NCBI GenBank assembly: GCA_913062815.1
Contig: CAJXWZ010000018.1
Location: 1-64,000, forward strand
Direction: 5' to 3'
Length of the DNA stretch: 64,000 nt
From: an uncultured Colwellia sp.
Lineage (GTDB): Bacteria > Pseudomonadota > Gammaproteobacteria > Enterobacterales > Alteromonadaceae
A program made the position numbers and the translations under genes. Positions 2,195 through 23,845 of this stretch are shown here, one piece after another (the stretch's first letter is position 1; every line of letters starts with the position of its first letter). The notes under the pieces were generated by a model that made no database searches, was not told the DNA's origin, and worked only from the letters and a program-made list of their open reading frames with translations.

Positions 2195-3400
2195 TCACGT
2201 AAAAGCAAATAAAGAATCAACATCAGTTTGTTCAGAAAAATAGCCTTTAATGACCCTCAGCTTTGAATCTGGTATACCGAATTCCATTTTAAATTTATTG
2301 GCAATTCTTTCTGGGTTAGGATCTAGAATAGTAACCAAAGGAAAATCAGTTCTTTTCATAAATGCATTAATGAATAACTCATTGCTTTTTATGTCTGTTT
2401 TCGGAAATGAGTAACCAATAATTATAATATGCTCGGCATTAACTAAACCTTTCCCCGCCTCATCCCATAAATCGTCAAATAAAATCCCAAATCCATGATA
2501 GTTCTTCTCTTTAACTGGTGGGATGATAAGGGGTATAGAGACCAATCCGGAACTACTTGCACTGCCTTTAGATATAAACCCCGGCCTTGCTCTAACTAAT
2601 AAATATCCATCTGGAGCTGGCTTTCCCCTGTCATCTAAAATATTGGGAGGATAGTATCCATAAGAAAAATCCTCAAATCCGTCTATAAACCTCCCAGCAT
2701 GGCACGCATAAGGCGATTTAGTACTTTCATAAACCCAAACTGTGTCGGGTGACGATTCTTGAGTCAACTCAATCGCTTCTTCGGGACTTATTGGATGACT
2801 CGATAACCAATTCACTGAACCGTGAAGTTTAATCAATTTAGGCATTGCCCTTTGTGATGGCATTGGAGCTTCCCATCCATCACGATATATACTTTTTGGG
2901 GAGAAATTATAACCTTCATCAGTTGTCCAAGTTCCTAAATCCCGTAAGGCCCTATCTAATAAAGTATCCCAATTAAATGTAATAACAAGGTCATCTGATC
3001 CCAAATTTTTTGCAAGCAAAGTATGTGGACTTGATAGCGGGCCATTTTGAATTGCATTTATTACAGCGGAAAAAATAAATACAAGCTGAGTGTATGTTTT
3101 GAAAGCAAATATTCGTTCTATCTGTCTATCACCTTTATGTGAATTAAGGTACATTTCAACTTCAGTATAAAAATCTTCGATATCTATATCATTTTGAAAA
3201 AAGATATTAGGGTCTAAGTTCTTAACTCGGGCAACAAAATCAAATAATGCATCCCTCATAACCCAAGGGTTATGATATATATCCAGTTTTTCAAATGTAG
3301 AAAAAAAGTCACACGCAATAGGCATCAAAAGACCTGTTGGACTAGCAGAATAAGCTTTTGAGGCGCCAGCACCAAGAAATAAAACGTTTTTAGAACTCAT
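2195..3400 (-). CDS. SIR2-like domain protein, probable defence NADase
   Basis: A 401-aa soluble protein with a SIR2-like fold. The N-terminal LFLGAGAS motif (residues 8-14) is the NAD-binding loop. DDLVITFNWDTLLDRAL (about 140-155), KLHGSVNW (about 190) and HIIIIGYSFPKTD (about 325-337) are the further conserved blocks of this family. Bacterial SIR2-like proteins of this type are commonly NAD-degrading effectors in anti-phage systems. There is no visible second effector domain. It is the last gene of a six-gene minus-strand operon, 42 bases after its neighbour, and a GGA lies 6 bases upstream of the ATG. The fold is clear; the NADase role is inferred. Confidence 0.8.
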   Translation of the reverse strand: MSSKNVLFLGAGASKAYSASPTGLLMPIACDFFSTFEKLDIYHNPWVMRDALFDFVARVKNLDPNIFFQNDIDIEDFYTEVEMYLNSHKGDRQIERIFAFKTYTQLVFIFSAVINAIQNGPLSSPHTLLAKNLGSDDLVITFNWDTLLDRALRDLGTWTTDEGYNFSPKSIYRDGWEAPMPSQRAMPKLIKLHGSVNWLSSHPISPEEAIELTQESSPDTVWVYESTKSPYACHAGRFIDGFEDFSYGYYPPNILDDRGKPAPDGYLLVRARPGFISKGSASSSGLVSIPLIIPPVKEKNYHGFGILFDDLWDEAGKGLVNAEHIIIIGYSFPKTDIKSNELFINAFMKRTDFPLVTILDPNPERIANKFKMEFGIPDSKLRVIKGYFSEQTDVDSLFAFT

Positions 3401-5126: not shown

Positions 5127-6230
5127 TCAATCTTTTTTTAATGAAGACTCAATAAAAGAGCGGATAACTAAACCTCTATGCTCCCTCGCCAACTTTTCAT
5201 TTACACCTTCTCTGGAGAATTCAAAATACCTTTTGAAATTTGTTTCAATATCAGCGTCAGGATTCTTCATATATTCATTGTATTTACTCTCTAGATTCGC
5301 CAGCAAAGGTATAAATTCTTCAATATTTATAGCATTAACATCGAACTGACTTAATTCGCAGATTAAAGTAAATATATTGGCTTTATTGAACCAATAACTT
5401 TTTTGAGGGAATTCACATGAATTAATGAAATCAATAATTACAAGCAGTTGTTCCGAAATCTTATCTGCATCATCAAAATATTCATTAAACTGCTCTACAA
5501 ATGACTGAGTGCTGTCGTTTCGTCTAAAGTATTCACCTTTAACAAGTGTAGCGACTAACGTGAGCATAAACTGTAAAGACAACATCCTGTTGTTATCATT
5601 TTCAGTAAAAACCTTATTTACATGAAAGAAATCTAAAAATTTATTTCGATCCTCTTCGTCAAGATTGAATTCTAAGAAATCAGCATCCACCCTCAATTCA
5701 TGCTCAATAATTTGTTTAGAAAAATAGACGAACTCACTATCCCCCCATTGAGCATTTGTTCTTTCCGTTCCATTTAAAGAATATTCGGTATTATTTATCC
5801 GCTGGAATATATCTTGAATTTGCTCTTGAGTAACATTTTTCAAATACCTAACTGAAACTTCATAGTTCAAAAAGCTTTTTTTCTGTTCGTCAGTTAAGCT
5901 AGAAAATTTAACTTTTGTTGCCTTCAAAGCAAATACACCAGAACCTTCAATAAAGTCTCTAATTGTTGTAATACGTTGTTGGCCATCTACAACTAGGTCA
6001 GATAGTTCAAGTGTATTAACATCCAAATCACCCGGGGCTTTATAAATCTCCGGAAATGGATAATTTAATAAAATAGTATTTATAAAGTTAATTTTATGAG
6101 CTTTTCGCCACACCAGCTTCCGTTGAAAAAAAGGGCTAGTTACCAACTGACCGCTCTTCACTTTTTGATAAAGTTCTATTATCTTTTCATTGTTAGCAGG
6201 GATGCTAGATTCTAGTGCTTGTAATGTCAT
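5127..6230 (-). CDS. DUF262 (ParB/GmrS-like, DGQQR) protein
   Basis: A 367-aa protein with the DUF262 N-terminal domain. The strand and helix block FFQRKLVWRKAHKINFINTIL (from about residue 34) is followed by LVVDGQQRITTIRDFI with D82-G-Q-Q-R86, the family's nucleotide-hydrolysis motif related to the ParB fold. The C-terminal half is helical. The GmrSD-type C-terminal HNH (DUF1524) domain is absent. It overlaps the upstream nucleotidyltransferase-like gene by 4 bases (ATGA), so the two are translationally coupled. DUF262 proteins are frequent in anti-phage loci. The 3' end contains a run of seven A just before the stop. Confidence 0.8.
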   Translation of the reverse strand: MTLQALESSIPANNEKIIELYQKVKSGQLVTSPFFQRKLVWRKAHKINFINTILLNYPFPEIYKAPGDLDVNTLELSDLVVDGQQRITTIRDFIEGSGVFALKATKVKFSSLTDEQKKSFLNYEVSVRYLKNVTQEQIQDIFQRINNTEYSLNGTERTNAQWGDSEFVYFSKQIIEHELRVDADFLEFNLDEEDRNKFLDFFHVNKVFTENDNNRMLSLQFMLTLVATLVKGEYFRRNDSTQSFVEQFNEYFDDADKISEQLLVIIDFINSCEFPQKSYWFNKANIFTLICELSQFDVNAINIEEFIPLLANLESKYNEYMKNPDADIETNFKRYFEFSREGVNEKLAREHRGLVIRSFIESSLKKD

Positions 6231-6900: not shown

Positions 6901-8343
6901 TTACACCTTATCCATATCTAATAAATGGTATTGTTTTGGCTCAGGAAATAATAACGATAAATCCCGTTTATTCATTTTAAACAATGGCCCTTTTTCGCTA
7001 ACGCGGCCATCTTTTGCTCTACGTTTTATTAGGTGATCCATGGTGATAACACCATCACGTAATAGCGGCATTAATTGGTTACTCATGGGATTTTTTGTAT
7101 GAGTAACAGATATAAGCTTAAAGTGTTCAACGCCATCAATATCAATACTCTCAGCTTTAATCCAAAAGGTTTCTTTATGTTTTTCAAGTAAACGAGAGCG
7201 TAATAACTTACCCGGCCATACGGCAACATCACCAAAATCTGTGTTAGTTTCAGTTAATAAATCAGCCTTTTCATCATAATTAAATTGAAGACCTTGGCTG
7301 TTAGGCTTACGAGCTGAAATGGTGCAATACAACTTGAAATCATCACCACGGTAATAACCAAATTGGTCTAATATTTTGACACTTTTATCAAGTGGACTTT
7401 GTTTCCAGTCGGCAACTTGAGCAAACAACGTCGTTCTATTATTTCCACCTCGACCAGATTTCAATTCTATGCCGTTATAGTCAGGCTCTTTGCTACTATT
7501 AATATCAATACCAAGCGCAGTTTCAATCGCCCGGCCTACCGCTGTTGAACCTTCCACAGTCGCCTTTAAAGGTTCGCCTCTAGCTAGAACCTTTAGCTTT
7601 TCTAATAACTCTTGGGCAACAGAACTATCATTAGGTATTAACTCAAGTAATTTGGCGATTACAGGGCTATTATCTTCGTGTAAATCTACATTACTTAAAT
7701 TGATTAGTAATAGATCATCACCTGCAATACTTAATGATACTTGAGCACCGGCTTCTGCGAATTTACCTAACCCTCTAAACCACATCCGTGGGTCACCTGA
7801 CTTGGTATTTGGACGATACAAGCTAACAGTTGTTTCTATTATTTGATCCGGAGAAATGAAGATAGCTTTCTTTATTATCTTATGGTCGGGCCCTTGACCT
7901 TGGGAATCATAACCATGAAAACCAGCTTCACTGAATAGTGTACGAACTGGTTGTGTGGCATCAAGAATGGACTTCTTTAGACCTGTTGCCGTCGGCTCAA
8001 AGGTAGCAAAATCTTGTCCTATGGCTACAAGTTTACGCTTATTATTTAAAACGCGTTCTTTCACTTCAACGAGCAAGTCGTCTTCACGCTCAATTTCAAT
8101 ATCACAGTCAGAAGTACTTTCAGGCTCAATGGAATCTTCAATAGCTATATTTTCCACAGCAAACATATCGACTTGAGGAGTAGGTGTTTCTGCAATGATT
8201 TGATTTTCACAAGCATGTACAAGATCAGGCCAAGTATCAAAACCATAGTCTTGAGCGATAAGTAGTTGTGCTTGGTGTAGCTTAAGGGAGTGCTTTTTTT
8301 GAAAAGTTTTAGCTTCTTTTTTATACGTAGACAGTTGTTTCAT
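6901..8343 (-). CDS. MvaI/BcnI-family restriction endonuclease with extra N-terminal domains
   Basis: The C-terminal half has the MvaI/BcnI signature, an E-x6-GI helix and PDYNGIELKSGR. The latter is the PD-(D/E)xK-type D-E-x-K catalytic set (D288, E293 and K295 from ATG 8343). Characterised members cut CCWGG or CCSGG. Residues about 20-45 form a small helical motif (HQAQLLIAQDYGFDTWPDL). Residues about 108-255 form a domain shared with the HNH protein at 10302-11147, ending in both at LKVLAR/LKILAR. I chose ATG 8343 because GAGGT lies 8 bases upstream; an in-frame ATG at 8409 would add 22 residues. It heads a six-gene operon and is divergent from the methyltransferase. Confidence 0.85.
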   Translation of the reverse strand: MKQLSTYKKEAKTFQKKHSLKLHQAQLLIAQDYGFDTWPDLVHACENQIIAETPTPQVDMFAVENIAIEDSIEPESTSDCDIEIEREDDLLVEVKERVLNNKRKLVAIGQDFATFEPTATGLKKSILDATQPVRTLFSEAGFHGYDSQGQGPDHKIIKKAIFISPDQIIETTVSLYRPNTKSGDPRMWFRGLGKFAEAGAQVSLSIAGDDLLLINLSNVDLHEDNSPVIAKLLELIPNDSSVAQELLEKLKVLARGEPLKATVEGSTAVGRAIETALGIDINSSKEPDYNGIELKSGRGGNNRTTLFAQVADWKQSPLDKSVKILDQFGYYRGDDFKLYCTISARKPNSQGLQFNYDEKADLLTETNTDFGDVAVWPGKLLRSRLLEKHKETFWIKAESIDIDGVEHFKLISVTHTKNPMSNQLMPLLRDGVITMDHLIKRRAKDGRVSEKGPLFKMNKRDLSLLFPEPKQYHLLDMDKV

Positions 8344-8355
8344 TTCTATTACCTC

Positions 8356-8368
8356 GATTGTAACAATC
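8356..8368. promoter_or_regulatory. Palindrome upstream of the restriction gene start
   Basis: The sequence gattgtaacaatc is a perfect 6+1+6 inverted repeat 12 bases upstream of ATG 8343. It touches the GAGGT Shine-Dalgarno (8351-8355 on the minus strand). A second, weaker inverted repeat (atcac-N4-gtgat) lies at 8387-8400. Such sites in the divergent region of a restriction-modification locus can be operators for a control protein or for the methyltransferase itself. No C-protein gene is visible. Confidence 0.35.
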
Positions 8369-8570
8369 CACCCGTAGGGCTTCTCAATCACACCTGTGAT
8401 CGAAGGCATTTAGCGGCCTAATAGAAATAACATTACTGTATAAATAGCTAGTGGTCAATACCTGATATTGGTATACTCCAAAAAGTTTAAAAAAATAACA
8501 ATAGTCCTGGATTTTTTGCAGGAAAATAATTAAAATATCTACTCACACTTAACACTAGGTTTTTACTAAA

Positions 8571-10148
8571 TTGAATTATATAGAATTATTCGCCGGATGC
8601 GGTGGCTTGTCTTTAGGCTTGGAATCAATAGATGGCTCTAGGATGATAATGGCGAACGAATTATCGCCAATGCCAGCACAAACGTTTGCTTATAATTTCT
8701 TTAATGAAGATCTAGAGATTAATGGTTTTGAACCAGAAAGAATTAAATGGTTATCGAGCCAACATTCAATTGAAAATTTAAGATTGAGATTACGTGAAGA
8801 CCCGAGAACATACCCTGAATTAAATGACGATAATCACCAAACGGATATTGTTGATGAAGACCTTGACGGCAAGCTTGTTGTTGCCAATATCATCCACTTA
8901 AATCAGTTTCTTGCTAGTAATCCTAATATCACAGAACAGCTATCAAATGCTTATGGACACGGTACCTTAGATTTTGTTTCTGGTGGGCCACCATGTCAGA
9001 GTTTTAGTATGGCAGGGCTTAGAAATAGAGATTGTGATAAAAATTCACTACCGTGGGAATTTGCTCAATTTGTTAACCAAGTACAACCTAGATTCGCAAT
9101 CTTAGAAAACGTTACTGGTATATTACGCGCTTTCGAACAGGATGGTGAAAGGTATCACGCATGGGTAGAAGTATCTAAAGCATTCAGTGAAATCGGTTAT
9201 GTACCACTATGTTTGCATGTTAACGCCCGTTTCGCTGGTGTACCACAGAATCGACCACGGTTTATCATGCTTGGTGTTAGACACGATATTTATGAGGAAC
9301 TAATTCCTACATTCAACAATCCAGAAGTCCAGTTATTTGCATCATCGATAGCGTTCTACAATTCAGTTCAAAATGGTAATAATCCGGGCATAGAGTTACT
9401 ACAGTACCATGACGTGGTTAATGAAAATGATTTGGAGTTATTTACCAATTCATTTTTAGCTCCTGTAGTTACAGCACCGATAGAACAAGTAACAGTAGCA
9501 GAAGCTATTGATGATTTAAGATTCAATGGGGAACAAGCGGAGCCATCAGAACACATTGTAAGTACTGCCAACTCATTAGCCCACGGTAACTTGGTTGAAA
9601 GACACGTCTTAACTAATCATGAAGAACGCGCAAATGGCGATTTAGTACAACGTAGATTTAGGCTATATCAAATCATGCAACAGGTTGGGAATGGCTTAGC
9701 TAAAGAAGTACGTTCAGTATTGAAAGGCTCAGCTGAAACTATCAGTGATGAAGCTTGGACAGCTTTTGGTGAGCACGATTATCTAATTGAAAACGGAAAT
9801 TATATTCAATTTAATACTAAGAATGAATTTCTAGACTTCTTGCTGCGCCACCCAACAAAAAAACAAACACAGAAAGCGTTAGATCCAGTTTCACCAGCAC
9901 CAGCGGCTTTATCAATTCCAGACGATGCCTGCCACTACCACCATGACGAATTGCGCACTTTAACGGTACGAGAGATGGCTAGAATACAGTCTTTCCCTGA
10001 TAATTTTGTTTTTAGGTCGAAGGTGACAACTGGTGGGCAGCAAAGAAAATTTGAAGTACCTCAATATACGCAGGTAGGTAATGCGGTGCCACCTCTACTG
10101 GGGCGTGCATTAGGGCTGTCAATTCAAAACCTACTAAACAGGTTGTAA
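8571..10148 (+). CDS. DNA (cytosine-5-)-methyltransferase
   Basis: A 525-aa C5-methyltransferase. Motif I is FAGCGG (residues 7-12), motif IV is GGPPCQSFS with catalytic C142, and motif VI is LENV (178-181). Motif VIII includes QNRPRF (about 226) and motif X is QVGNAVPP (about 507). The target-recognition region between VIII and X is long, about 250 residues. The start is TTG: an in-frame TAG at 8556-8558 leaves no other start before motif I, and AGG lies 11 bases upstream. It is divergent from the MvaI-like endonuclease and followed by an HNH nuclease, so it should be the protective enzyme of this locus. Its target sequence cannot be read. Confidence 0.92.
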   Translation: MNYIELFAGCGGLSLGLESIDGSRMIMANELSPMPAQTFAYNFFNEDLEINGFEPERIKWLSSQHSIENLRLRLREDPRTYPELNDDNHQTDIVDEDLDGKLVVANIIHLNQFLASNPNITEQLSNAYGHGTLDFVSGGPPCQSFSMAGLRNRDCDKNSLPWEFAQFVNQVQPRFAILENVTGILRAFEQDGERYHAWVEVSKAFSEIGYVPLCLHVNARFAGVPQNRPRFIMLGVRHDIYEELIPTFNNPEVQLFASSIAFYNSVQNGNNPGIELLQYHDVVNENDLELFTNSFLAPVVTAPIEQVTVAEAIDDLRFNGEQAEPSEHIVSTANSLAHGNLVERHVLTNHEERANGDLVQRRFRLYQIMQQVGNGLAKEVRSVLKGSAETISDEAWTAFGEHDYLIENGNYIQFNTKNEFLDFLLRHPTKKQTQKALDPVSPAPAALSIPDDACHYHHDELRTLTVREMARIQSFPDNFVFRSKVTTGGQQRKFEVPQYTQVGNAVPPLLGRALGLSIQNLLNRL

Positions 10149-10301: not shown

Positions 10302-11147
10302 ATGTCACAAGCCCAAAGAATAAAAGCTGAAAACCTATCAATAATAGAAATAGAATCAATTGATTTCCTTGAAAGTAGGAGTCTTGATTTTGCTTTACTT
10401 GCGACTACAGAAACAATGAAAACCAAAGGGATAATGGATGCTACTAGGCCAATTAATCGATATTTAGCAAGAAGTAACTTTCATAATTATGATGAACAAG
10501 AATCAGGTGGAAATGTAACTAAAAACGTAACCTTCATAACTGAAAGTGAACAGCATTCATCAACCGGTTCTTTTTATAGAGCAGGTACAAGGGGGGATAG
10601 AAGATTAAATCTATCTGGATTTTGGGATTTCGCTGTAGGCAATGAAATCATTCTATTAATTGTAAAAGACGACATTCTCCACATTATAAATATTTCAAAA
10701 ATTAACTTAGCAACATATTGGAAAGAGGAAAAAACTTCCGTTGTAAAGGGATTCTTTCAGTATATTTTTGAACAAAAAACAATGCCGCTTTTCGATACTC
10801 TAGAACTTGATGATATCGATCAAGCCGATCAAAATGCTATTGAAGGTGCTGTCAAAGAATTAAAAATATTAGCACGAAAACGAAATAAAAAAATTGCAGA
10901 TGCTTGTAAGAAACGAGATAAATACACATGCAGATCTTGTGATTTTCATTACAGAGATAAAGTCGTGGAATGCCATCATTTAAATCCACTGAGCGTTACA
11001 AATGAAACGACAATCTCTTTAAAAGATTTAGTAACTTTGTGTCCTACATGCCACTCCATAGCTCACCACTTATTAAGAGCAGATTCAGCAAATAATATTA
11101 ATGTAGATAATCTAATAATCAACTTAAAAGAAGCTATTAAAATATGA
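10302..11147 (+). CDS. HNH endonuclease sharing an N-terminal domain with the MvaI-type enzyme
   Basis: A 281-aa protein. Residues about 195-258 form a zinc-type HNH nuclease: CRSC (210-213), ECHHLNPLS with H225/H226, and CPTCHSIAHH (247-256). Residues about 29-192 align by eye with residues about 108-255 of the MvaI-like protein. Shared points are a DFA start, DATRP/DATQP followed by a hydrophobic SxF/AGF block, a basic-Gly-Asp-Arg patch (FYRAGTRGDRR against LYRPNTKSGDPR), and a common end at LK(I/V)LAR. The shared unit may be a DNA-reading or modification-sensing domain. It could be a second restriction effector, or a modification-dependent nuclease. AAGGA precedes the ATG. Confidence 0.8.
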   Translation: MSQAQRIKAENLSIIEIESIDFLESRSLDFALLATTETMKTKGIMDATRPINRYLARSNFHNYDEQESGGNVTKNVTFITESEQHSSTGSFYRAGTRGDRRLNLSGFWDFAVGNEIILLIVKDDILHIINISKINLATYWKEEKTSVVKGFFQYIFEQKTMPLFDTLELDDIDQADQNAIEGAVKELKILARKRNKKIADACKKRDKYTCRSCDFHYRDKVVECHHLNPLSVTNETTISLKDLVTLCPTCHSIAHHLLRADSANNINVDNLIINLKEAIKI

Positions 11148-11242: not shown

Positions 11243-14131
11243 TTATACCGTGCGCACATCCTCACTTTTGCGCAATTGAACAGGTTCATCACTTTTAATA
11301 GAAAACAACTCTCTTTTGAATACAGGGATCCCTGCATTTAAGCCACTTGAAATAGTATGAAAATCAAATGCATTTTGATATTCAAACGACTGAAACCTAG
11401 CTAATAACAGCTCTAACAACTTCAAGCTATACTTGGTGACAGGAACCGCATAATAAACGAGTGTAGCTCCCTTTCTACTAGCGTTAGCAACATCATCATG
11501 ACTCGTCTGATGGCCATTATCACAAAGCCAATCTGCTAGCTCTTTGCGAGTTATTGAATCATTATCTAATCCCCATTTATTTCTGACAAAAGCTCTAAGA
11601 AACAATCGCTTTAATATGCCAGCAGAGCAATCATTTTGCACATTAATACCGCGTTTACCATCGGTAGTAACATAGCTTAAAAAGAAATCTTCAAAGCGAT
11701 AAAAGTCTTCAACTGTTTTTAAGCAATTGGCTTGGCTATTAGCCTTATCAATTTGCTCTTGTGTGTACTCTAGTTGACCCTCTGCAAGTTTTGGGTAATT
11801 AGGTTTACGCCAACCATCAAAAATAGCTCGTGCATACTGCATGTCTGCTTCTGTACGCCAAGGAGCTGTATCGAAAGCAAGGTGCTCTGTATTGCGTATT
11901 TTAACTATACGAGGGTTAATAGGCATACGCTTCATATCGTACTCTTGGTTCAGTAATATCTCTTTCTTAATTTTCACCAAGTCGGCCTGTTTATGCCATT
12001 GTTCACGCATGGCAATAAAGTGACTACTATCGATTTTTTGACCCGGATAACGATTTAAGAATAACTGCAAAAACCATTCATTCTTATCATTGTCAGTATC
12101 AAGTTTTTTACCGTCGTGTTCTTTTGGCATTTTTACACCAGCTTTAGCCAAGACAATCTTCTGATCGTCTTGGTTAAGTCGGTCATCTGCAATTTCCGCT
12201 GTGCAGTTACCTCTCGTCTTTATAGACACTAGCTGCTTAACCCAATGCTTACGCTTCAGCATTGAACCATCAATACTATCTTCACCGTCAATAACATCAC
12301 ATAGTTCTTGATATCGAACAGAAAATGGGCCAGACAAGTCCAGATCAGGCGCATCGGTTAATAGTCCGTCAGTGGTGGCAGAGAAGGTACTGTACCCCTC
12401 TCTACTACCGTTAATAATTAACTCGCTAAGTGTTGCTCTAACTAACCCTGTAACATGGCTGGCAATATAAGGGTTTGCTATTGGAGAGGGTGATGATGTT
12501 TTACTATCATTAGTTTCAGTGTCAAAAAACGAAGTCGGTCTAAGCGTAGCTGTCTTACCGTACAAGGTATTGCCGATACTTTTTACGAACTCTGCTAATA
12601 AGCCATTGCCAGATTCATCATACTGCGCTCTTGTTTCGCGAACCCAACGAACGAATTGCTCAAATATGCGTGGCTCGTCCTTTTTCCATGGAACAATAAC
12701 ACCATGCGTGATTGTGATTTTCGCGTTCAGACTTAATGCCATTTGTATTTCAGGAGCTGTCGCATAGCATTCACCTTCAAGCGGTGATACTAGGCCGTAA
12801 TTTTCCGTTTTTACCACTAAGTTAGGATGTTCAGTATCATCAGGAAATTTAAAGTGAATGTGAGCCACCCCCATGACATGACCAATAAAATCATTGGGCT
12901 CTTTGGTTTCAAAGGATGCAGCATAATCAAGAGGATAAATATCAAGCATCGCAATAACATAGGCTGATGCTAAGTCAAAGTCGTTATATTCACCTTTCTC
13001 TGTTGGGCCAAAATAATAGCAGTTGTTAAGCCCACCAGCATAACCATCGACAAAAAATTGCGAATGATAACGACGCGATACAGTTTCAACCTTACGTAGA
13101 CGCTTTCTAACTCGACCATTTAGTCCATCCCATTCTTGAGATTCAATATAACGAATGCCGAATACTTCGTTAAAGTATTGAGTGTCAGCCATTAATTTTC
13201 TAAATAGGGCTACAGAGATACCGCCAATAGTGGTTGGCATTCTTGTTAGTCCTAAAACATTACGAACAAACTGCCTGATCACTAAACCATAAATTACACT
13301 GATCATGGCATCAGTAATATTGTATCTGTAAGCTAGTTCAGGATACTTCCTCATAAAGTAATAGAATTGTGCAATATCACAGTCATCGGGTAATTCAACT
13401 TTTGGAAAGCCCAGCCAGTCACCTAATGCTGAAACACCCTTCATTCCCGGCGTAATCAGCAATGTATCGACAAAATTAACAAACGTCATGAAACAACGTC
13501 TATTACAGTCAGCCATAACAACAGGCTCTGGTCGATAACGACGCTTATCACCATTACCCATACCCCACCCGTTATTTATAGAATCCACCTCCTTTTTAGG
13601 GTTTCCTAACCGACCGCTAACAGTACCAGCAGTGCCTTTTACTTGATCCGAAAACTGCCAAAAATCAGACCAGGAACTAACGTCAGCTCGCATGAAATGG
13701 GAGTAGATAAAAGTAACGGCAGGCCAATCTGAAATAACATGCTCTTTTTTAGCCCAATGTAAAATATTGCCAAATAGCTTCTTAAACGAATAACGGTACT
13801 TCTTGTCTCTACCATCGGTATAAACAACACCTTTCAATACCTTATAGTCAGCAATTAAATAAAAGCCGTACATAGCTACGTCATTCTCACCAAGACTATC
13901 TTTAAATTCCACTTCACCCGTTTTTTCATTAAATTCATATTCAACATCAAAGCCTATATGCACGTTAGCACCACGACCTTGCAAAATTTGATCAGGAGAC
14001 GCTGTCGCTTCTTCAATGTCACGGGCAATGTCCAGTTCAATCTGCTTTATGATCCCAAGATTATTATTATCTTCAACTTCAAGACCATATTTCACTGCAT
14101 CAAAAGTACAAACTTCATATTTTACTTTCAT
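11243..14131 (-). CDS. piPolB-like family-B DNA polymerase (primer-independent type)
   Basis: A 962-aa replicative polymerase (numbering here from TTG 14143, add 4 to ATG numbering). Exonuclease motifs: FDVEY with D66/E68, RAD (D154) and YNITD (274-278). A YAGG motif (368-371) links to the polymerase domain, as in protein-primed enzymes. Motif A is DLASAY (D390), motif B is KSIGNTLYG (K521) and motif C is TTDG (D592). KTRG (642-645) is, as I recall, characteristic of piPolB. These enzymes can start DNA synthesis without a primer and define pipolins. ATG 14131 is preferred (GGA 8 bases upstream). A terminator lies 22 bases before the start. The order is integrase, alpA, small gene, polymerase. 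Confidence 0.88.
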   Translation of the reverse strand: MKVKYEVCTFDAVKYGLEVEDNNNLGIIKQIELDIARDIEEATASPDQILQGRGANVHIGFDVEYEFNEKTGEVEFKDSLGENDVAMYGFYLIADYKVLKGVVYTDGRDKKYRYSFKKLFGNILHWAKKEHVISDWPAVTFIYSHFMRADVSSWSDFWQFSDQVKGTAGTVSGRLGNPKKEVDSINNGWGMGNGDKRRYRPEPVVMADCNRRCFMTFVNFVDTLLITPGMKGVSALGDWLGFPKVELPDDCDIAQFYYFMRKYPELAYRYNITDAMISVIYGLVIRQFVRNVLGLTRMPTTIGGISVALFRKLMADTQYFNEVFGIRYIESQEWDGLNGRVRKRLRKVETVSRRYHSQFFVDGYAGGLNNCYYFGPTEKGEYNDFDLASAYVIAMLDIYPLDYAASFETKEPNDFIGHVMGVAHIHFKFPDDTEHPNLVVKTENYGLVSPLEGECYATAPEIQMALSLNAKITITHGVIVPWKKDEPRIFEQFVRWVRETRAQYDESGNGLLAEFVKSIGNTLYGKTATLRPTSFFDTETNDSKTSSPSPIANPYIASHVTGLVRATLSELIINGSREGYSTFSATTDGLLTDAPDLDLSGPFSVRYQELCDVIDGEDSIDGSMLKRKHWVKQLVSIKTRGNCTAEIADDRLNQDDQKIVLAKAGVKMPKEHDGKKLDTDNDKNEWFLQLFLNRYPGQKIDSSHFIAMREQWHKQADLVKIKKEILLNQEYDMKRMPINPRIVKIRNTEHLAFDTAPWRTEADMQYARAIFDGWRKPNYPKLAEGQLEYTQEQIDKANSQANCLKTVEDFYRFEDFFLSYVTTDGKRGINVQNDCSAGILKRLFLRAFVRNKWGLDNDSITRKELADWLCDNGHQTSHDDVANASRKGATLVYYAVPVTKYSLKLLELLLARFQSFEYQNAFDFHTISSGLNAGIPVFKRELFSIKSDEPVQLRKSEDVRTV

Positions 14132-14153
14132 AAATAATTCCAAAATAAGTAGT

Positions 14154-14205: not shown

Positions 14206-14454
14206 TTATTTCGACTGTTTTGGAGGCAACTCGAAGTTCATTTGATAAAAGCGATTATCAGCACAAGCCATTACGAATTTTGTAATTTCCTTGGCGTAAT
14301 GACCAGCTAAATCATTATCCTGTTCTTTAATGAATGTAATGACTCTTCCATAACAGTCTTTAAGTAAAACGCCCTTATTTTCAATAGGGTCTATAACAGT
14401 AACTTGTGCACCGTTAATCATTCTATCTCCCGGTACGATTGCTAATTTTTTCAT
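14206..14454 (-). CDS. Small unknown protein between alpA and the polymerase
   Basis: An 82-aa soluble protein with a beta-rich N-terminus (VPGDRMINGAQVTVIDPIENKGVLLKD), suggesting an SH3- or KOW-like small barrel. This is a shape impression, not a family call. ATG 14454 is chosen because AGGTAA lies 8 bases upstream. An upstream in-frame start at 14532 would add 26 unlikely residues across that ribosome-binding site. It is cotranscribed with the integrase and AlpA genes and is followed by a strong terminator. Confidence 0.6.
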   Translation of the reverse strand: MKKLAIVPGDRMINGAQVTVIDPIENKGVLLKDCYGRVITFIKEQDNDLAGHYAKEITKFVMACADNRFYQMNFELPPKQSK

Positions 14455-14569
14455 ATTTATTACCTTTTTCAATTTGTATGTGATGCTGACAATACTGCCG
14501 GCGGAAATGTGTAAAATGTTTAAGCTACCCACTCTTACAGAGTGTTTTGCCTAGTTGTTTATTTATGCT

Positions 14570-14758
14570 TTAACTTTTCATCATTTCATCCTCCCACTCT
14601 TTAATCGCTTCAAGAGTGAAGCGGATGGTGCGACCGATACGCATGACTTTGGGTAATTTCTTACCTGTTTTGTCACGTGTCACGTTGACACGCACAGTTG
14701 CTTCATTGAGCCCATATAGGCTGGCGAATTCAGGAATACTCAAGGCACGTTTTTCCAT
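14570..14758 (-). CDS. AlpA-like/excisionase-type helix-turn-helix protein
   Basis: A 62-aa winged-helix protein of the AlpA/MerR-like type. SIPEFASLYGLNEATVRVNVTR is the helix-turn-helix and KVMRIGRTIRFTLEAIKEWEDE the wing and C-terminal helix typical of AlpA and DNA-binding excisionases. Such proteins direct excision by the neighbouring tyrosine recombinase or activate its gene. It starts 3 bases after the integrase stop, so the two are coupled. A gene of this kind next to the integrase is usual in pipolins. Confidence 0.8.
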   Translation of the reverse strand: MEKRALSIPEFASLYGLNEATVRVNVTRDKTGKKLPKVMRIGRTIRFTLEAIKEWEDEMMKS

Positions 14759-14761
14759 GAG

Positions 14762-15934
14762 TTAAATCTCCTCTGTTTTGGTGAAAGAATTTAAAGGACG
14801 GTTGCCTAACATTGCTTGAGCGGTTTGCTCACTAGCATCAAGTAACCGGGTGTTTTCGTGGTAGGCATACGAAAGGGTTTGTTTTACGTCAGAGTGTGAT
14901 AATGACTGCTGAACAAGTCTAATATCGCCACAGACTTGCAGCATACGGCTGGCGTGCGTTCTGCGTAAGTAATGAGCTGTAAAGAGCTCAGTAATCCCAG
15001 TTTTGGCTTGAACATAACTTCTTATACGGTTTAAGCATTTGGTAGGTTTGCTCATGTAGTTACCAACTACTAGTGACGGTGATAAATGCTTTCCATCACT
15101 ATATGGCAGCATTAACTGAACTACTTCTTGAGAAATATTATTAAGACAGTGATGTATAGGTTTACCACTCTTACTTGTAGGTATATGCAACTCTGTGTAA
15201 TCGGCATTAAACCAAGACAACTCAATGCTTCTAATATTTCCCTGCCTCAACCCAGTAAATAAACTAAGCAATAGCGCAAGTGCATGTATTGGGTTTTCAT
15301 CACCTAACGCAGCTTCTATAAATGCATAAGTTTCTTCGGGTGATAATCGTCTATTACGAGCAAGATTTTCTTTGGGCTTAGGTATGCCTGTACATGGGTT
15401 AATAGAGACATAGTCATGTAACATGCCAATAGAAAACATCCTGCTAAATGCTGACTGATAACGACCAACGGTAGGGCTATCAACCGACTGAGAAATTTCA
15501 TTTAAGAAACGGATGATGTGTGATTTACGGATGTCGCGGATGCGTTTCTTGCCAAATTTTTTGCGAAATTTCTCAATTTTAGCGATAAAGCCAGCGCTAT
15601 CTTTGTGATGTGCTTTGCTATATTCGATAACCAAATCACATAAGTCGTCAAAAATGCCATTATTAGCTGAAGGAAGAAATCCTTGTTTTATTTTTGATAT
15701 CATATCTAAGACATAAAGCTCAAACTCATCGGGCTGCATATCTGGATAATGACCAGCAGTGATTTGATATCGCTCTCCTTCCCTTGAGAACTTCAATACA
15801 AATGAAAGTTTGGTTGGTCTTGCAATCAACCTTTGGCGTCTGTCATAAATATTGTAATACTCTTGTGGCTTACCCCCTGACGATGGCAACTCAATTGCTG
15901 ATAATGTCGTCTTATTAAATTTAATACCTTTCAT
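14762..15934 (-). CDS. Tyrosine recombinase (integrase 1, polymerase module)
   Basis: A 390-aa phage-type integrase. The catalytic set is complete: R230 (TGLRQGN), K255 (TSKSGK), H321 and R324 (HYLRR), H347 (LSHSD), and the nucleophile in LSYAYHE (Y356 or Y358). Residues 1-90 form an arm-type DNA-binding domain and about 95-190 the core-binding domain. GAGGAG lies 9 bases upstream of the ATG. It leads the unit integrase-alpA-small gene-polymerase and is divergent from the 430-aa unknown gene. It should integrate and excise the polymerase module; its att site is not proven. Confidence 0.9.
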   Translation of the reverse strand: MKGIKFNKTTLSAIELPSSGGKPQEYYNIYDRRQRLIARPTKLSFVLKFSREGERYQITAGHYPDMQPDEFELYVLDMISKIKQGFLPSANNGIFDDLCDLVIEYSKAHHKDSAGFIAKIEKFRKKFGKKRIRDIRKSHIIRFLNEISQSVDSPTVGRYQSAFSRMFSIGMLHDYVSINPCTGIPKPKENLARNRRLSPEETYAFIEAALGDENPIHALALLLSLFTGLRQGNIRSIELSWFNADYTELHIPTSKSGKPIHHCLNNISQEVVQLMLPYSDGKHLSPSLVVGNYMSKPTKCLNRIRSYVQAKTGITELFTAHYLRRTHASRMLQVCGDIRLVQQSLSHSDVKQTLSYAYHENTRLLDASEQTAQAMLGNRPLNSFTKTEEI

Positions 15935-16144
15935 ATGTGCTTCTCCTCAACGTTTCGATGGTTGAAGATTAAGGACAGTTACGCATACAATCACGCCCCC
16001 CTACCACATAGAACATCTATTATTTCTCGCTAATTTTTTAACGATTTAATGTGGAGGTGGCTTATTTGTTTGGTTTCCAAGCTATTTGTGGTGTAAATTG
16101 ATTATGCACAGTTAATTGATTTATATTTGGTGGCATTTACTTAT

Positions 16145-17437
16145 ATGGCAGATAAACAGGATTGTATTTTCTTAATTGAGGGTATATTAAGTAGTGATAG
16201 ATGGGAGGGTGAGCCAGATAAACATCGTGTTAATCACAAACAGATTAACTATCACCAAGATGCTATTGATGCGATTTATTTTGTTATGAAGCGTTTTGTT
16301 ATTTCTCAAAGCAATGCATTAATGCTATTGAAAGACTTCTTTGACCATATAGAATTAGATTGCCCGTTGCCTTCTCAATCGGCGCTATCACGAAGAAAGC
16401 CATCCACGAGAGTCACTAGATCTAATAAAGGTAGATACTTTGTCATATCAAGCACTGGTATTCAGGTATTAAAAACAAAGCCTAAAGTAACCACCAGCCA
16501 AAGGCATGCGTTAATAGGCTACCAGTCAAAAAACCATATCTCTTTTCGAATAGGCGACAATAGGTACCGCTTTTCTAATAACACAACAGGAGCAGGTAGG
16601 AAGAAGGGCACAGCTAAAAAGCTAGCATCTAGATCGGTGACTAAATGGTTAAATCTAAACCGTCAGCAGATAGGTACGTTACAAGCTTTACTCAATATCA
16701 GTGGCGTTAAGTTATTCGATGCATTAATCCCATTCTACCCAACGTCACCAGACAACCGTCAATCACTTGAAGCTAAATATGCTGATTTCATCCTGTATCG
16801 CAATAAACAAGCAGCAATCAAAAATGTATCTGATGGTTATAAGGTAGATAAATATGTCTTGGAAGCAATAGAAGTCACATTACTTCCATATAATTACAAA
16901 CCAGAAAAAGAATCAAAATACGTACTATTTATTCGCTGCCTAAATAGTAACTTATGCTTTATTAGGTATATACCTGACGATATTAATACCTACATAAAGC
17001 CATTAAGGTATTCAATATCAGCGACAAAAGAAGGTAACTTATTGAATTTCACAATATCTGTTCAAAAAAATGAATACAAAACCCATATACAGAACTATGG
17101 TACATCAATTTTATGCTCGACAAGAAAACAAGAAAAAGAGGAAAAAAAATATGCAACATTCGGTAGTCGAGCGGTAAACAAAGCACTATTCGCAGAAAGT
17201 ATAAGTAACAACCAAACGATAACCTTCGCTGATAAATTAGCACTAACCAAAGCCCCAATACGGATTAACTTTGGCAACCTTGAACTAGATTGTGAAGAAA
17301 AATTCAGATCACACATGAACAAGTGGATTTCACATGTAAATTTACATCTCGCAGAGCCTTTAATGGAGGATATCCACTCATTTGATAATGCTAAACCTGA
17401 CACTGGATTTGTGGGCGAATTTACTAAAATAATATGA
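16145..17437 (+). CDS. Unknown 430-aa protein with an IS5-transposase-like N-terminal block
   Basis: Residues about 30-75 (YHQDAIDAIYFVMKRFVISQ and the following PSQSALSRR) resemble the N-terminal helical region of IS5-type DDE transposases. Downstream I see no DDE triad, and the rest is a long lysine-rich protein with a beta-rich C-terminal half. ATG 16145 is preferred over TTG 16127: GGTGG lies 11 bases upstream. It is divergent from integrase 1 and is followed by a gap of over 400 bases. It may be an element-specific protein with a recycled transposase DNA-binding domain. Not recognised. Confidence 0.5.
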   Translation: MADKQDCIFLIEGILSSDRWEGEPDKHRVNHKQINYHQDAIDAIYFVMKRFVISQSNALMLLKDFFDHIELDCPLPSQSALSRRKPSTRVTRSNKGRYFVISSTGIQVLKTKPKVTTSQRHALIGYQSKNHISFRIGDNRYRFSNNTTGAGRKKGTAKKLASRSVTKWLNLNRQQIGTLQALLNISGVKLFDALIPFYPTSPDNRQSLEAKYADFILYRNKQAAIKNVSDGYKVDKYVLEAIEVTLLPYNYKPEKESKYVLFIRCLNSNLCFIRYIPDDINTYIKPLRYSISATKEGNLLNFTISVQKNEYKTHIQNYGTSILCSTRKQEKEEKKYATFGSRAVNKALFAESISNNQTITFADKLALTKAPIRINFGNLELDCEEKFRSHMNKWISHVNLHLAEPLMEDIHSFDNAKPDTGFVGEFTKII

Positions 17438-17874: not shown

Positions 17875-18057
17875 TTAAGTTACTTCTTCAACAATATAAC
17901 CCGTAATACCACCAACAACAGCGCCAATGGCAATACCATAAGGACCAAATCGATAGCCAATTGCCATACCTGTTACAGCTCCTTTCATTGCACCTTTAGA
18001 TATGTATTTATCGTCAAAGGGCAATTTAGATTTTTTCATTTCTTTATAAATCTCCAA
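17875..18057 (-). CDS. Small glycine-zipper membrane protein
   Basis: A 60-aa protein. Residues about 22-55 carry repeated G-x3-G spacing (GAMKGAVTGMAIGYRFGPYG and GAVVGGITG), which is a glycine-zipper transmembrane hairpin. The N-terminus is basic. Such proteins act as small membrane or lysis-like proteins or bacteriocin-like peptides; none of these can be chosen here. It has its own hairpin downstream and lies 155 bases from the DUF2787 gene. Confidence 0.55.
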   Translation of the reverse strand: MEIYKEMKKSKLPFDDKYISKGAMKGAVTGMAIGYRFGPYGIAIGAVVGGITGYIVEEVT

Positions 18058-18212: not shown

Positions 18213-18644
18213 CTAGAAGAACGTTACTTCCACTTTAAACACACCCATTTCGACATAGGAAATAAAGTTAGTCAGAAATAAATTTTTCAACTCATCACCA
18301 CTTCGTTTATCTAACCAACCACCATAGACAGTGAAGACCTGCTCAGCAATAAAACAAACGTCGATATCAACCGCTAGCTCAGGGTAAGGAGCACCCTGAA
18401 AGCTAAAGTCAGTGATGTAGACAAATTGATAATTAACTTCACCATCAATCATGATTTTAATTAGACGTATTTCTACAGGGTGAAAACCTCCAGCACTAAT
18501 CGAATAGTCAGGATCACGAAAGTTCAAAACAATGCCCTCTGCGTCTGGATCTGGCTTTGAAATATCAGCGAGTTCATCAGCTAATATTTGGTAAAGCTTT
18601 TCAGGCACAGTAAAGCACTGTCTCTTGTTAAAAGTCAGTTTCAT
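18213..18644 (-). CDS. DUF2787 family protein
   Basis: A 143-aa protein with the DUF2787 pattern: FTVPEKLYQILADELAD, GIVLNFRDPDYSISAGGFHPVEIRL, YITDFSFQGAPYPELAVDIDVCF and a C-terminal NFISYVEMGVFKVEV block. The family is of unknown function and is common on integrative elements of Vibrionales and Alteromonadales. It follows the 186-aa gene by 60 bases on the same strand and probably belongs to the same transcript. Confidence 0.8.
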   Translation of the reverse strand: MKLTFNKRQCFTVPEKLYQILADELADISKPDPDAEGIVLNFRDPDYSISAGGFHPVEIRLIKIMIDGEVNYQFVYITDFSFQGAPYPELAVDIDVCFIAEQVFTVYGGWLDKRSGDELKNLFLTNFISYVEMGVFKVEVTFF

Positions 18645-18704: not shown

Positions 18705-19265
18705 TTACTTTTTAGCAGAAGTAGGGAGGGGTTTTAATTTGGTTAAGCGATCACGTTGATTAATTAATAACGGGTTAACCAAGTGCAAAAATTGATTCTT
18801 TTCTGATTTCAGTATTAAACTTAGTGCTTCATCTCGGCATACTGCTGCTAAGAAGCTTACGTTGTTTGCAGAGCCGCCTTTGATTACCGCTTTGAATAAG
18901 GATGATTTAAAGGATTTATCTTCTTCTTGCTGTTCTAACAACTCAAATAAGGCATCAAGACTCACCCAAGCCTTTGAGAACAAACCACCGTTAGTATTGG
19001 AGGTTAAACGCAAATATCTAACTTTGTCTTCCGTGTTTAATGCAAGTTCAAAACCTATTCGACTATTTGATTTAGGCGATAGACTTTTTGCTTGCCCTAC
19101 TAACAGCGTTTTGTAATTAATATCAGGGTCAATTGTTTCTTCATTATTTGTATCAACAGGTTGATCTGTGATGGCTTGTTTGTCAGCGGTGTTATCATCT
19201 GCTGGCGTATCTATTTCACTGATAGCTTTGCTTTCAGTTTTAGTGTTTTTAGCTTTTTCAGCCAT
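18705..19265 (-). CDS. Unknown protein with acidic N-terminus
   Basis: A 186-aa protein. Residues 1-48 are low-complexity, rich in Asp, Glu, Thr and Lys, and probably disordered. Residues about 50-186 look folded (GRI-type strands GFELALNTEDKVRYLRLTSN, then a helical LDALFELLEQQEEDKSF). No family recognised. GGA precedes ATG 19265. It lies just after a 32-aa frame and upstream of DUF2787, in a conserved-looking cassette of mobile-element genes. Confidence 0.55.
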   Translation of the reverse strand: MAEKAKNTKTESKAISEIDTPADDNTADKQAITDQPVDTNNEETIDPDINYKTLLVGQAKSLSPKSNSRIGFELALNTEDKVRYLRLTSNTNGGLFSKAWVSLDALFELLEQQEEDKSFKSSLFKAVIKGGSANNVSFLAAVCRDEALSLILKSEKNQFLHLVNPLLINQRDRLTKLKPLPTSAKK

Positions 19266-19276: not shown

Positions 19277-19375
19277 TTATTTTAATAATTGATTTAACAG
19301 TGATTGCGCTTCACTGCGAAGCGATAGAGGAATATCCCCGTTACAGATTATTGAAATGAGAGTGTATTCATCCAT
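19277..19375 (-). CDS. Possible 32-aa coupled small protein
   Basis: A short frame MDEYTLISIICNGDIPLSLR... ending in SLLNQLLK. Its ATG (19373-19375) overlaps the end of the 120-aa gene, which stops at 19368, so translation could be coupled. It stops 11 bases before the 186-aa gene. The amphipathic composition is protein-like, but the frame is short and there is no homology to cite. Confidence 0.35.
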   Translation of the reverse strand: MDEYTLISIICNGDIPLSLRSEAQSLLNQLLK

Positions 19376-19730
19376 CAGCCTTACCCTCGCCTAAATTTAG
19401 GTCAACGGGCTTTATCAGGTAAACCCCACTACCTTCGTTGTTAATAATGGTAAGTGAGAGTTGATAGCCTTTAGGCAATAGCTCAACAAACTCAGGATTG
19501 GTATCAGCCAACTCAATAAAGTGCCTCATGAAGCCATCAAGACTTGTTATTGCGGAGACCACCTTGTCTTGCCCAGTAATAATAAAAATGGGGGAGGGAT
19601 ATTCCGACCAGTAAGCCTCCGCATCGGCTAAATTACCAAACGGCTCAACAAGTTTTTCAACCACCTTGATTGCCGTGCTTAATGGTAAAGCGAGTTCTTC
19701 CATAGTCGGTAAGTAATGTAATACTTGCAT
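19368..19730 (-). CDS. Unknown 120-aa island protein
   Basis: A soluble protein with no recognised domain. It contains ELALPLSTAIKVVEKLVEPFG, a helix, and PSPIFIITGQDKVVSAITSLDG, an alternating strand region. ATG 19730 is chosen because GAAGG lies 7 bases upstream; an upstream ATG at 19775 would lie in the terminator hairpin region. First gene of the cassette leading through the 32-aa frame, the 186-aa gene and DUF2787. Confidence 0.5.
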   Translation of the reverse strand: MQVLHYLPTMEELALPLSTAIKVVEKLVEPFGNLADAEAYWSEYPSPIFIITGQDKVVSAITSLDGFMRHFIELADTNPEFVELLPKGYQLSLTIINNEGSGVYLIKPVDLNLGEGKADG

Positions 19731-19753
19731 CGTTATTCCTTCTGAAATGCAAA

Positions 19754-19799
19754 AAAGCCCATTCCTCGATACCAATTAAGGTTATGAGGAATGGGCTTT
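19754..19799. terminator. Strong hairpin after integrase 2
   Basis: A perfect 14-bp stem (aaagcccattcctc with gaggaatgggcttt) and an 18-base loop. On the minus strand the stem ends in TTTTTT, as expected of a terminator for the integrase that stops at 19830. It also separates the downstream cassette, which must have its own promoter or depend on read-through. Confidence 0.75.
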
Positions 19800-19829: not shown

Positions 19830-21005
19830 TTAGCTAAACATCTTTGATAATGTCTCGCTGGTCTGTCGCATGGACTCTGTATTTACCTTGGTATACCTTT
19901 GGGTCGAGATGATTGACCTATGCGATAATTGCTCTTGGATCAGTCGAAGTGAAATATTTTCACTAGCAAGATTCGAAGCCACACTATGTCTAAGTGAGTG
20001 CAAACAGATACCATCACTGTTAACCTGAGCTCTCTTTAGTAACTTGAAAAATGTTTTTCTAACAGAGCGTAATGGCTGCCCTTTTACTTTTCCAGCAAAC
20101 AGGTACGGGTTATCAGGTTTAAGCGGCACGTTACCAATAAACGACAGTAAGTAATCAGTGATAAACACCGTTCTGGGTTTAAAATTCTTGGTTATTGGGA
20201 TATGAATAATGCGCTTTTTAATATCTACATCTTTGACTTTAATATTCGATACCTCACCGCAACGTAAACCTGTTAAAGCTAATGTGGCAATGTAAGCGGC
20301 AATCGTTCTGTTGGAGTATTCCCGACAGGCTTTAAGCAGTCGTTTAATTTCAAAGGTCGTTAGAAAATGTGTGCGAGCGTTATTTAATCGAAATAGCTTA
20401 ACAGGCAAGCACACATCAGAATCAACAACACTTAAAGAAACTGCGTACTTGGTCAGACTTTTTAAAATCATCAAGACCTGATTAGCAGTTGCCGGAGCAT
20501 ATAAGTTTCCATACTTATTGATAGTATCCGTCATTTTCAAATGCAATTGCTGTACATCAATAGTGCGTAAATCTTGATACAGCCAATGACCAAACTTAGG
20601 GGCAATATGAGTGTCATAACGGTACACATCATCACGCCAACTCTTTTTGCGCTTCTTAATGCTTGGTAGGTAGTGTTGTTGGAAAAATTCATCAATGGTT
20701 AATCTGGTAGGACAGTTACGCTCAACCTTGGGATTAATACCCTCTAATAAACTCATACGATGTTTCTGTGCGAGTTTTCGAGCAGTAGCAACATTGATAT
20801 CGCCAAATCGACCAAGCCCAATTGAGCACTTACGCCGATTATAGGTATAGCGAAAAAGAAAACGCTTATTACCTGTTTTACCTATCAAGCACTTTAACCC
20901 CACCGTCTGACTATCTGTTACTTCTAATTCAGATGATGGCGAATCACGCGGAGGCGCTTTTAATACTTTGATAGCTTTATCGGTAAAATTGAATTTATTA
21001 CCCAT
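19830..21005 (-). CDS. Tyrosine recombinase (integrase 2) with N-terminal arm-binding domain
   Basis: A 391-aa integrase. Residues 1-95 are the DUF4102-type arm-binding domain (FLFRYTYNRRKCSIGLGRFG) and about 100-205 the core-binding domain. The catalytic residues are R248 (TGLRCGE), K273, H336/R339 (HSLRH), H362 (LSHRS) and Y371 (QRYTKV). This class usually integrates at tRNA 3' ends. It lies 2.8 kb from the intact tRNA-His and is the better candidate for having used that site. It is clearly different from integrase 1 in sequence, so they are not a recent duplication. Confidence 0.9.
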   Translation of the reverse strand: MGNKFNFTDKAIKVLKAPPRDSPSSELEVTDSQTVGLKCLIGKTGNKRFLFRYTYNRRKCSIGLGRFGDINVATARKLAQKHRMSLLEGINPKVERNCPTRLTIDEFFQQHYLPSIKKRKKSWRDDVYRYDTHIAPKFGHWLYQDLRTIDVQQLHLKMTDTINKYGNLYAPATANQVLMILKSLTKYAVSLSVVDSDVCLPVKLFRLNNARTHFLTTFEIKRLLKACREYSNRTIAAYIATLALTGLRCGEVSNIKVKDVDIKKRIIHIPITKNFKPRTVFITDYLLSFIGNVPLKPDNPYLFAGKVKGQPLRSVRKTFFKLLKRAQVNSDGICLHSLRHSVASNLASENISLRLIQEQLSHRSIISTQRYTKVNTESMRQTSETLSKMFS

Positions 21006-21117: not shown

Positions 21118-21181
21118 GTTTTTATCTAACAAATTTATAGATGCAATTGTGCGTCGATTTAATAATGTTAGGAATATCATC

Positions 21182-21772
21182 ATGAAATACTTAGTCGTTT
21201 CAATAAAAGGCGGTGTTGGTAAAACTGGAATTGCACAGAACCTTGCTACTTATACAGATGCTCAATGTATCACCAATGATTTAGTTGTTAATGCTAATAG
21301 CGGGATCATTCAACTAGAGCCAAAGAAAAGGTCTATACCGATAAAGTTTTGCGCTAACGTACCTGTAGTTATGGATTTTGGCGCTAGTTACAATAACCTC
21401 GACCATAAATTAGCCCATGCGGTTAAGCTCTGTAATGTTATTGTGGTGCCTACATTAACTGATGCTCGAAGTCTTCAAGCGACTATTGATACTGTTAACT
21501 TGGTTAAAGTGGCAGATAAGCCAATTGCTATCATCATCAATAACTTCACTAGCGAAAGTAAACTCAAACAGGCCAAAGATTATCTGACAGATGCATTAGG
21601 TCGATTACCTATTTTTACTATCCGTACAACCACATTGTTTGAGCGCGTGGCTAAAGATGGCTGTGATTGGTTCAGCAAGGTTCATCAGGTTAAAGGGGAA
21701 TATCAGCTCAATAAAACCCGAGTAGCCCATGAGCAAGTATATGCTGCTATTACCGCTCTAGGAGGTAAATAA
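21182..21772 (+). CDS. ParA-like ATPase
   Basis: A 196-aa short ParA/MinD-type ATPase. The deviant Walker A is KGGVGKTGIAQNLATY near the N-terminus, and VVMDFGASY (about residue 70) is in the Walker B position. ATG 21182 is chosen because AGGA lies 8 bases upstream; an upstream frame start at 21149 would add 11 residues. Short ParA proteins paired with a small DNA-binding protein position plasmids and some integrative elements. The stop overlaps the next start (TAATG), so the pair is coupled. Confidence 0.85.
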   Translation: MKYLVVSIKGGVGKTGIAQNLATYTDAQCITNDLVVNANSGIIQLEPKKRSIPIKFCANVPVVMDFGASYNNLDHKLAHAVKLCNVIVVPTLTDARSLQATIDTVNLVKVADKPIAIIINNFTSESKLKQAKDYLTDALGRLPIFTIRTTTLFERVAKDGCDWFSKVHQVKGEYQLNKTRVAHEQVYAAITALGGK

Positions 21773-21975
21773 TGACAATGCAAACACTTGAAGAATTACA
21801 TCACTCCATCGGCGGTAGACCCAAGTTTAAGCTACGTAGAAAGAAAGTAAGGCTTAGTTTTTATCTTGATATTAAAGAAGCTGAATTATTAAAAACCCAT
21901 GCAGAAGTTAACGATACGACACTTAGTAAAGCTGTTCGTGAGTCTTTGAAGCCATTATTTAAGCACTCAAAATAA
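21772..21975 (+). CDS. Small basic DNA-binding partner of ParA (ribbon-helix-helix-like)
   Basis: A 67-aa basic protein. The N-terminus is rich in Lys and Arg. The stretch KKVRLSFYLDIKEAELLKTHAEVNDTTLSKAVRESLKPLF has a strand followed by two helices, as in CopG/Arc proteins. Its start overlaps the ParA stop. It is the expected centromere-binding partner and may bind the palindrome at 21090. A second ATG two codons later is also possible. Confidence 0.6.
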   Translation: MTMQTLEELHHSIGGRPKFKLRRKKVRLSFYLDIKEAELLKTHAEVNDTTLSKAVRESLKPLFKHSK

Positions 21976-23794: not shown

Positions 23795-23845
23795 ATGGGG
23801 TGGCTAAAGGGATTTGAACCCTCGACAACCGGAATCACAATCCGG
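23795..23845 (-). repeat. attL-like repeat within tRNA-His
   Basis: The 3' half of the tRNA-His gene, matching 2009-2059 at 48 of 51 bases. On the tRNA strand the island lies immediately 3' of the gene, the usual side for an element integrated at a tRNA 3' end. Confidence 0.75.

Follow-up and report, generated by a model that had tools for sequence, protein, structure and literature searches.

A 64,000-nucleotide stretch of an uncultured Colwellia sp. genome (hereafter the window) encodes a DNA polymerase that an earlier note had assigned to the piPolB family, whose presence was taken to make the surrounding island a pipolin at tRNA-His. The locus raises two questions: whether polymerase and island bear out that assignment, and whether the polymerase shares the history of the island that carries it.

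The polymerase and its family

The gene lies on the minus strand at 11243–14143 when read from a TTG start (966 residues, P0001), or gives 962 residues from the ATG at 14131; the plus strand across 11243–14131 is crowded with stops. Every motif that the earlier note had listed for the 962-residue protein can be located, and what that account left out was the strand, the tRNA fragment at 2009–2059, a second block with a recombinase, and how relatives compare. In P0001 numbering, the exonuclease motifs are D66-x-E68 (DxE), R152-A153-D154 (RAD) and Y274-NIT-D278 (YNITD), followed by YAGG (G370, G371), motif A DLASAY (D390), motif B KSIGNTLYG (K521, G529), motif C T590-T591-D592-G593 (TTDG) and KTRG (K642, R644), the last being a motif name taken over from the earlier note. 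An alignment of 26 hand-picked sequences (P0001 to P0022 plus four enterobacterial proteins, out of 120 listed) holds D66, E68, R152, A153, Y274, D278, G370, G371, D390, K521, G529, T590–G593, K642 and R644 invariant, with D154 kept in at least 90%. The TTDG motif C had been singled out as suspect; we reject it as an oddity because it is the family norm, found in 26/26 sequences including those of E. coli (P0048) and Enterobacter (P0024), and because primer-independent PolBs polymerise efficiently even though their motif C has no first Asp, according to the accessible part of PMC7544198. The window enzyme retains catalytic motifs A and B and KTRG, together with a motif C from which the first Asp is missing, as in the piPolB class.

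Homology points the same way. Identity to enterobacterial piPolBs is 34–36% across 86–90% of the length (E ~1e-134), measured here by phmmer, where the published pipeline uses its own HMM at E<=1e-50. At E<=1e-3 there are 992 homologues among 7992 scored candidates, far beyond chance, and the polymerase is the sole PF03175 match in the window genome. In the tree it groups among piPolBs, inside the starred clade with P0002–P0016 (94% identity to P0002, about 44–45% to P0015), a placement that is a weak test alone, with phi29 as the only pPolB and set as outgroup. The predicted product is therefore a piPolB by homology, motifs and tree, as first proposed, and would be expected to start DNA synthesis without a primer. 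The family was reportedly described in a 2017 paper.

The fold brings in an alternative, a protein-primed PolB element of the phi29 or casposon type with its own terminal protein. Residues 59–733 of the predicted model share the exonuclease and polymerase domain fold of phi29 DNA polymerase (PDB 2pyj, 1xhx), a protein-primed enzyme that is 14% identical and lacks the C-terminal part beyond about residue 740; piPolBs and pPolBs also form one cluster, as the available text of PMC7544198 has it. Against this, the nearest sequence relatives are piPolBs, motif C lacks its first Asp as they do, and the island ends are tRNA fragments. Kinship with protein-primed phage polymerases and a terminal protein gene nearby, named by the earlier note as contrary signs, did not appear: there were no matches among 50,697 phage records, and Pfam scans of 22 island open reading frames contained no terminal-protein family, although poor conservation is typical of such proteins. 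Matches on viral contigs came to two weak overlapping loci on one contig. We give the protein-primed reading almost no credence and treat the enzyme as a piPolB.

Island ends and gene content

The integrated pipolin extends from 2009 to 23845, about 21.8 kb. Its near end is an intact tRNA-His gene with a GTG anticodon (23796–23871, minus strand; tRNA and repeat searches), the only full tRNA-His copy in an assembly that is 94% complete. The far att end is a displaced 3′ fragment of the same tRNA (2009–2059, minus strand), and the two form a 51-base direct repeat (2009–2059 and 23795–23845) that corresponds to the 3′ part of tRNA-His and is 94% identical, with 3/51 bases differing. Within it, a 23-base core containing the anticodon stem-loop (2037–2059 and 23823–23845) is identical. 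Such an arrangement commonly marks an island that has rebuilt the tRNA from a 3′ half carried by the element. The polymerase gene sits between att-like direct repeats, one of which overlaps a tRNA gene.

The first genes inwards from the tRNA are cargo: a type IV-like HNH endonuclease (22843–23550, minus; PF01844, 42.7 bits; PADLOC mREase_IV, 73.7 bits) and a protein with NYN and OST-HTH/LOTUS domains (22036–22824, minus; domain scan), a 30% relative of which adjoins piPolB in a Roseateles locus (L029). There follow a putative partition pair on the plus strand and a backbone block on the minus strand. The pair consists of a 67-residue, weakly RHH-like protein (21772–21975; RHH_1, 15.1 bits, below cut-off), which also follows ParA in the pipolins of G169, G048, G101 and G130, and a ParA-like partition ATPase (21149–21772; phrog_164; PF01656, 28.4 bits). 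The block comprises tyrosine recombinase B (intB, 19830–21005), with an Arm-DNA-bind_3 domain, which is the likely tRNA-His integrase (PF00589, 99 bits; PF13356, 54 bits; intB tree), two conserved pipolin backbone proteins recognized by family and synteny, u135 (19368–19775; phrog_32947) and u186 (18705–19265; phrog_28971), and a DUF2787 protein (18213–18644; PF10980, 124 bits). Next come u60, a small glycine-zipper protein (17875–18057, minus; PF13441, 29.2 bits; relatives), and the 436-residue orphan u436 (16127–17437, plus), divergently placed from intA and matched in G169, G048 and G101 by diverged homologues in the corresponding position. Only five relatives of u436 besides itself were found at E<=1e-3 among 5.8 billion proteins searched; its weak IS5-type transposase-like hits all fall below cut-offs, and its predicted structure has a mean pLDDT of 33. 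The u436 homologue P0126 and P0002, one of the polymerases P0002–P0014 that come from metagenome contigs, each have a longest contig of 16,124 and 8 members, which suggests that the two may lie on one contig.

The second half of the island begins with tyrosine recombinase A (intA, 14762–15934, minus; PF00589, 55 bits), adjoined by an excisionase-like HTH_17 protein (14570–14758, minus; PF12728, 28.2 bits; TIGR01764 below cut-off; PHROG excisionase families; also in relatives), then a 108-residue reading frame without a Pfam hit (14206–14532, minus) and piPolB itself. Beyond these lies cargo again: an HNH-like protein (10302–11147, plus; HNH, 21.1 bits, slightly below the cut-off of 21.4), a C5 cytosine DNA methyltransferase (8571–10148, plus; PF00145, 160 bits), an MvaI/BcnI-type restriction endonuclease (6901–8409, minus; PF15515, 188 bits), a GmrSD_N (DUF262-type) protein (5127–6230, minus; PF03235, 66 bits; PADLOC NsnA, 82 bits) and a SIR2-like protein (2195–3400, minus; PF13289, 26.1 bits; PADLOC SIR2 models). 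The two proteins flanking the methyltransferase have a 131-residue region in common (34%, E 7e-18), N-terminal in the HNH-like protein, perhaps one recognition domain serving two nucleases.

Two tyrosine recombinases are thus present, one of them beside an excisionase-like gene, an arrangement that the accessible part of PMC7385651 gives for pipolins with two such enzymes. We reject a reading as two nested islands, one for each recombinase, since no second tRNA-derived repeat was found inside 2009–23845 and both recombinases co-occur in other pipolins. The E. coli pipolin (NZ_CP110858.1, L088; PMC7385651, seen in excerpt) has the same parts, namely an intA–HTH–hypothetical–piPolB block, a DUF2787–u186–u135–intB block at the tRNA and restriction cargo. 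It differs in its target (tRNA-Leu), in its polymerase (piPolB 34–36% identical), in the relative orientation of the two blocks (opposite there, co-oriented in the window), and in lacking the window features of a ParA/67-residue pair and u436; conversely, the uracil-DNA glycosylase family was not found in the 22 window-island reading frames scanned. The designation as a pipolin, at tRNA-His where E. coli pipolins use tRNA-Leu, is upheld by these loci and by the excerpted PMC7385651.

The island might instead be a relic that no longer moves, leaving a set of defence genes stranded in tRNA-His. Its att copies do differ at three of 51 bases, and a search for an empty site found none in 39 genus genomes or at five homologues of the right flank; in the genus genomes examined, synteny with a tRNA-His was seen for neither flank. 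Yet the backbone reading frames are all open, piPolB has no internal stop and the anticodon core is identical at both ends, while differences outside the core are expected because the element brings its own tRNA half. We consider a relic quite unlikely and an intact-looking pipolin the better account.

A second 3′ tRNA-His fragment (98%) occurs in the window genome on a 4.8-kb contig (G000:C70:2362-2409, L087), explained either by a further island or by a contig break. Four further 3′ fragments lie downstream of the intact tRNA in G169 (L082:8301-18823) and G220 has ten att-like matches; those of G169 and G220 mark tRNA-His as a repeated integration site in the host family.

Separate histories of polymerase and backbone

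Three other pipolins, in the same-family genomes G169, G048 and G101 and likewise at tRNA-His, have the window's gene order from the tRNA inwards and its anticodon core; unlike in the window, their piPolB is opposite in orientation to intA. G101 gives the same values as G048, being nearly the same element, so that these represent two independent lineages and not three. Along the backbone they are close to the window (identity in G169/G048: intB 86/85%, DUF2787 80/75%, u186 68/59%, u135 51/50%, ParA 79/53%, 67-residue protein 80/44%). On the piPolB side the corresponding values are 61/52% for HTH_17, 42/43% for intA, 30/26% for u436 and 29/29% for piPolB, the last being 28–30% overall.

Trees reveal the same conflict. 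The intB tree joins the window with G169, G048 and G101 at 100/99, and both the joined DUF2787–u186–u135 tree and the intA tree place it with G169 and G048, again at 100/99. The piPolB tree instead joins the window with P0002–P0016 at 100/100, and G169 and G048 with G273, G227 (first) and G324 at 100/100. A clade of the window, G169 and G048 polymerases is rejected with p-AU 2e-60, in a tree that excludes seven divergent rows (phi29, Staphylococcus, Roseateles, Zoogloea, P0018, P0021 and Methylomonas), and adding G169/G048 to the ten-row window clade is rejected at 8e-91; the groups for these tests were chosen after the identities had been seen.

Could the window and G169/G048 polymerases be orthologues that diverged fast on a single backbone, with no exchange? 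The piPolB trees contain long branches that meet (a warning from the tree program), and once G227 (first), G273, G324, G130 and Actinobacillus are left out as well, the test no longer rejects a union of G169/G048 with the ten-row clade (p-AU 0.32), a loose grouping without the intermediates. However, G169 and G048 keep 87% piPolB identity at 92% intB identity, and the polymerase of the window shows 94% identity with P0002 and 44% with P0015, yet 28–30% with G169/G048; the strict rejection stands independently of where G169/G048 are placed, because of these identities. The same conflict recurs inside one genome: in G227, two neighbouring pipolins flank a single tRNA-Leu(caa) and are 92% identical in intB, 97% in DUF2787 and 83% in u186 but 28% in piPolB, and a clade of the two polymerases is rejected (p-AU 3e-66). 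Fast divergence without exchange is accordingly improbable. G169 and G048 are also mosaic relative to one another (intA 47%, u436 27%, ParA 55%).

The tree conflict and the G227 pair together make piPolB look exchangeable on a stable integration backbone. We infer that the window lineage is the one that switched, because the G169/G048 polymerases go with the G273 group, which the intB tree puts, weakly (89/91), beside the tRNA-His group. A related result within E. coli is the low agreement (0.29) between piPolB and XerC trees given in the accessible part of PMC7385651. No title on deep piPolB exchange appeared in the literature searched, in which pipolin papers were covered in part.

The same integrase lineage differs in which half of the tRNA it duplicates. 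The islands of G169 and G048 sit 5′ of an intact tRNA-His, in the same orientation relative to the tRNA as in the window, and the duplicate comprises the promoter region and 5′ half (93% over 128 bases in G169, 87% over 142 in G048), where the window island duplicates the 3′ half; in G101 the 5′-half copy sits on another contig. Islands with a 5′ tRNA fragment are known but rare (159/3919 in Islander; PMC4383910, in the part available), and expression from a foreign promoter is seldom met in bacteria, by the excerpt of a review (PMC8371274). Both modes in one integrase lineage, at 85–86% identity, seem unusual, and a limited literature search returned no statement of it. Taken together, the hallmark polymerase is probably an exchangeable cassette drawn from deep, different piPolB clades on a stable backbone (intB, DUF2787, u186, u135 and, in the host family, ParA), and one integrase lineage, recombining within the anticodon stem-loop, probably lets elements mimic either tRNA half.

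Distribution and a model of the element

Genomes with piPolB are 5/196 in the host family and 5/148 in the host order, the window genome counted in each; E. coli piPolB occurs in 292/5426 E. coli genomes. Among 22 piPolB loci scanned for nearby tRNAs, four enterobacterial loci have tRNA-Leu(taa), two of Aeromonas tRNA-Asn and one of Zoogloea tRNA-Lys, with none in the other 15. The pipolins compared above add tRNA-Leu(caa) in G227, G273 and G324, tRNA-Leu(taa) in G130 and tRNA-His in G169, G048 and G101, so the target tRNA varies by lineage.

DUF2787 is present in 17/29 compared stretches, of which two are without piPolB and several are short; one contig entered the count twice, as G358 and as L005. 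Islands in G189 and G007 have an intB–u135–u186 backbone like that of the window (intB 70% and 40–41%, respectively) in genomes with no piPolB match at E<=1e-10; the G189 contig ends 0.2 kb beyond intB, leaving its neighbourhood partly unseen. ParA with the 67-residue protein accompanies piPolB in 5/5 piPolB genomes sampled from the family; neither occurs in the remaining 24 stretches, many of them truncated (E<0.1), which argues that partition is not a general pipolin trait.

These features very probably describe an integrated pipolin of about 21.8 kb in tRNA-His that would be excised by intB, copied as a circle by piPolB and held by the ParA pair, with defence cargo and a polymerase exchanged on a kept backbone. 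In this model, intB would recombine the anticodon stem-loop core, helped by the HTH_17 protein and perhaps by intA; the excised circle would be copied by piPolB, starting synthesis by itself, and maintained by ParA and its RHH-like partner; the defence genes would be cargo that pays for carriage. At some point the polymerase gene would have been swapped for one of another piPolB clade, as the trees suggest, with the integration backbone kept. Core-plus-cargo modules and integrase-linked sites are reportedly described in a 2024 paper that treats pipolins as defence islands.

A genuine pipolin might also use piPolB for DNA damage tolerance or defence rather than for copying the excised element. 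The accessible text of PMC9710591 calls the role of piPolB in the cell unclear and says that it was shown to contribute to damage tolerance, E. coli pipolin excision is negligible, with none detectable in standard growth (PMC7385651, in excerpt), and the island is rich in defence cargo. Against this stand plasmid piPolBs and the constant company of the ParA/RHH-like pair in the family pipolins, which is sensible for a replicating circle. We regard a damage-tolerance or defence role as a tentative possibility, on the unlikely side, and favour copying of the excised circle.

Pipolins as a type are already known; the window adds an intact-looking tRNA-His example in a marine-type gammaproteobacterial lineage. 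Since polymerase and integration backbone have separate histories, pipolins are not to be classed by piPolB alone. Should one backbone be able to work with piPolBs from distant clades, the polymerase would have few sequence-specific requirements to satisfy in the element, which suits an enzyme that needs neither a primer nor a dedicated origin protein to start synthesis. The DUF2787–u186–u135 block and the ParA pair are candidates for other replication or maintenance functions. The G130 pipolin (L079-L080), whose site is a group of three tRNA-Leu(taa) genes, has the ParA pair with a distant intB (34%).
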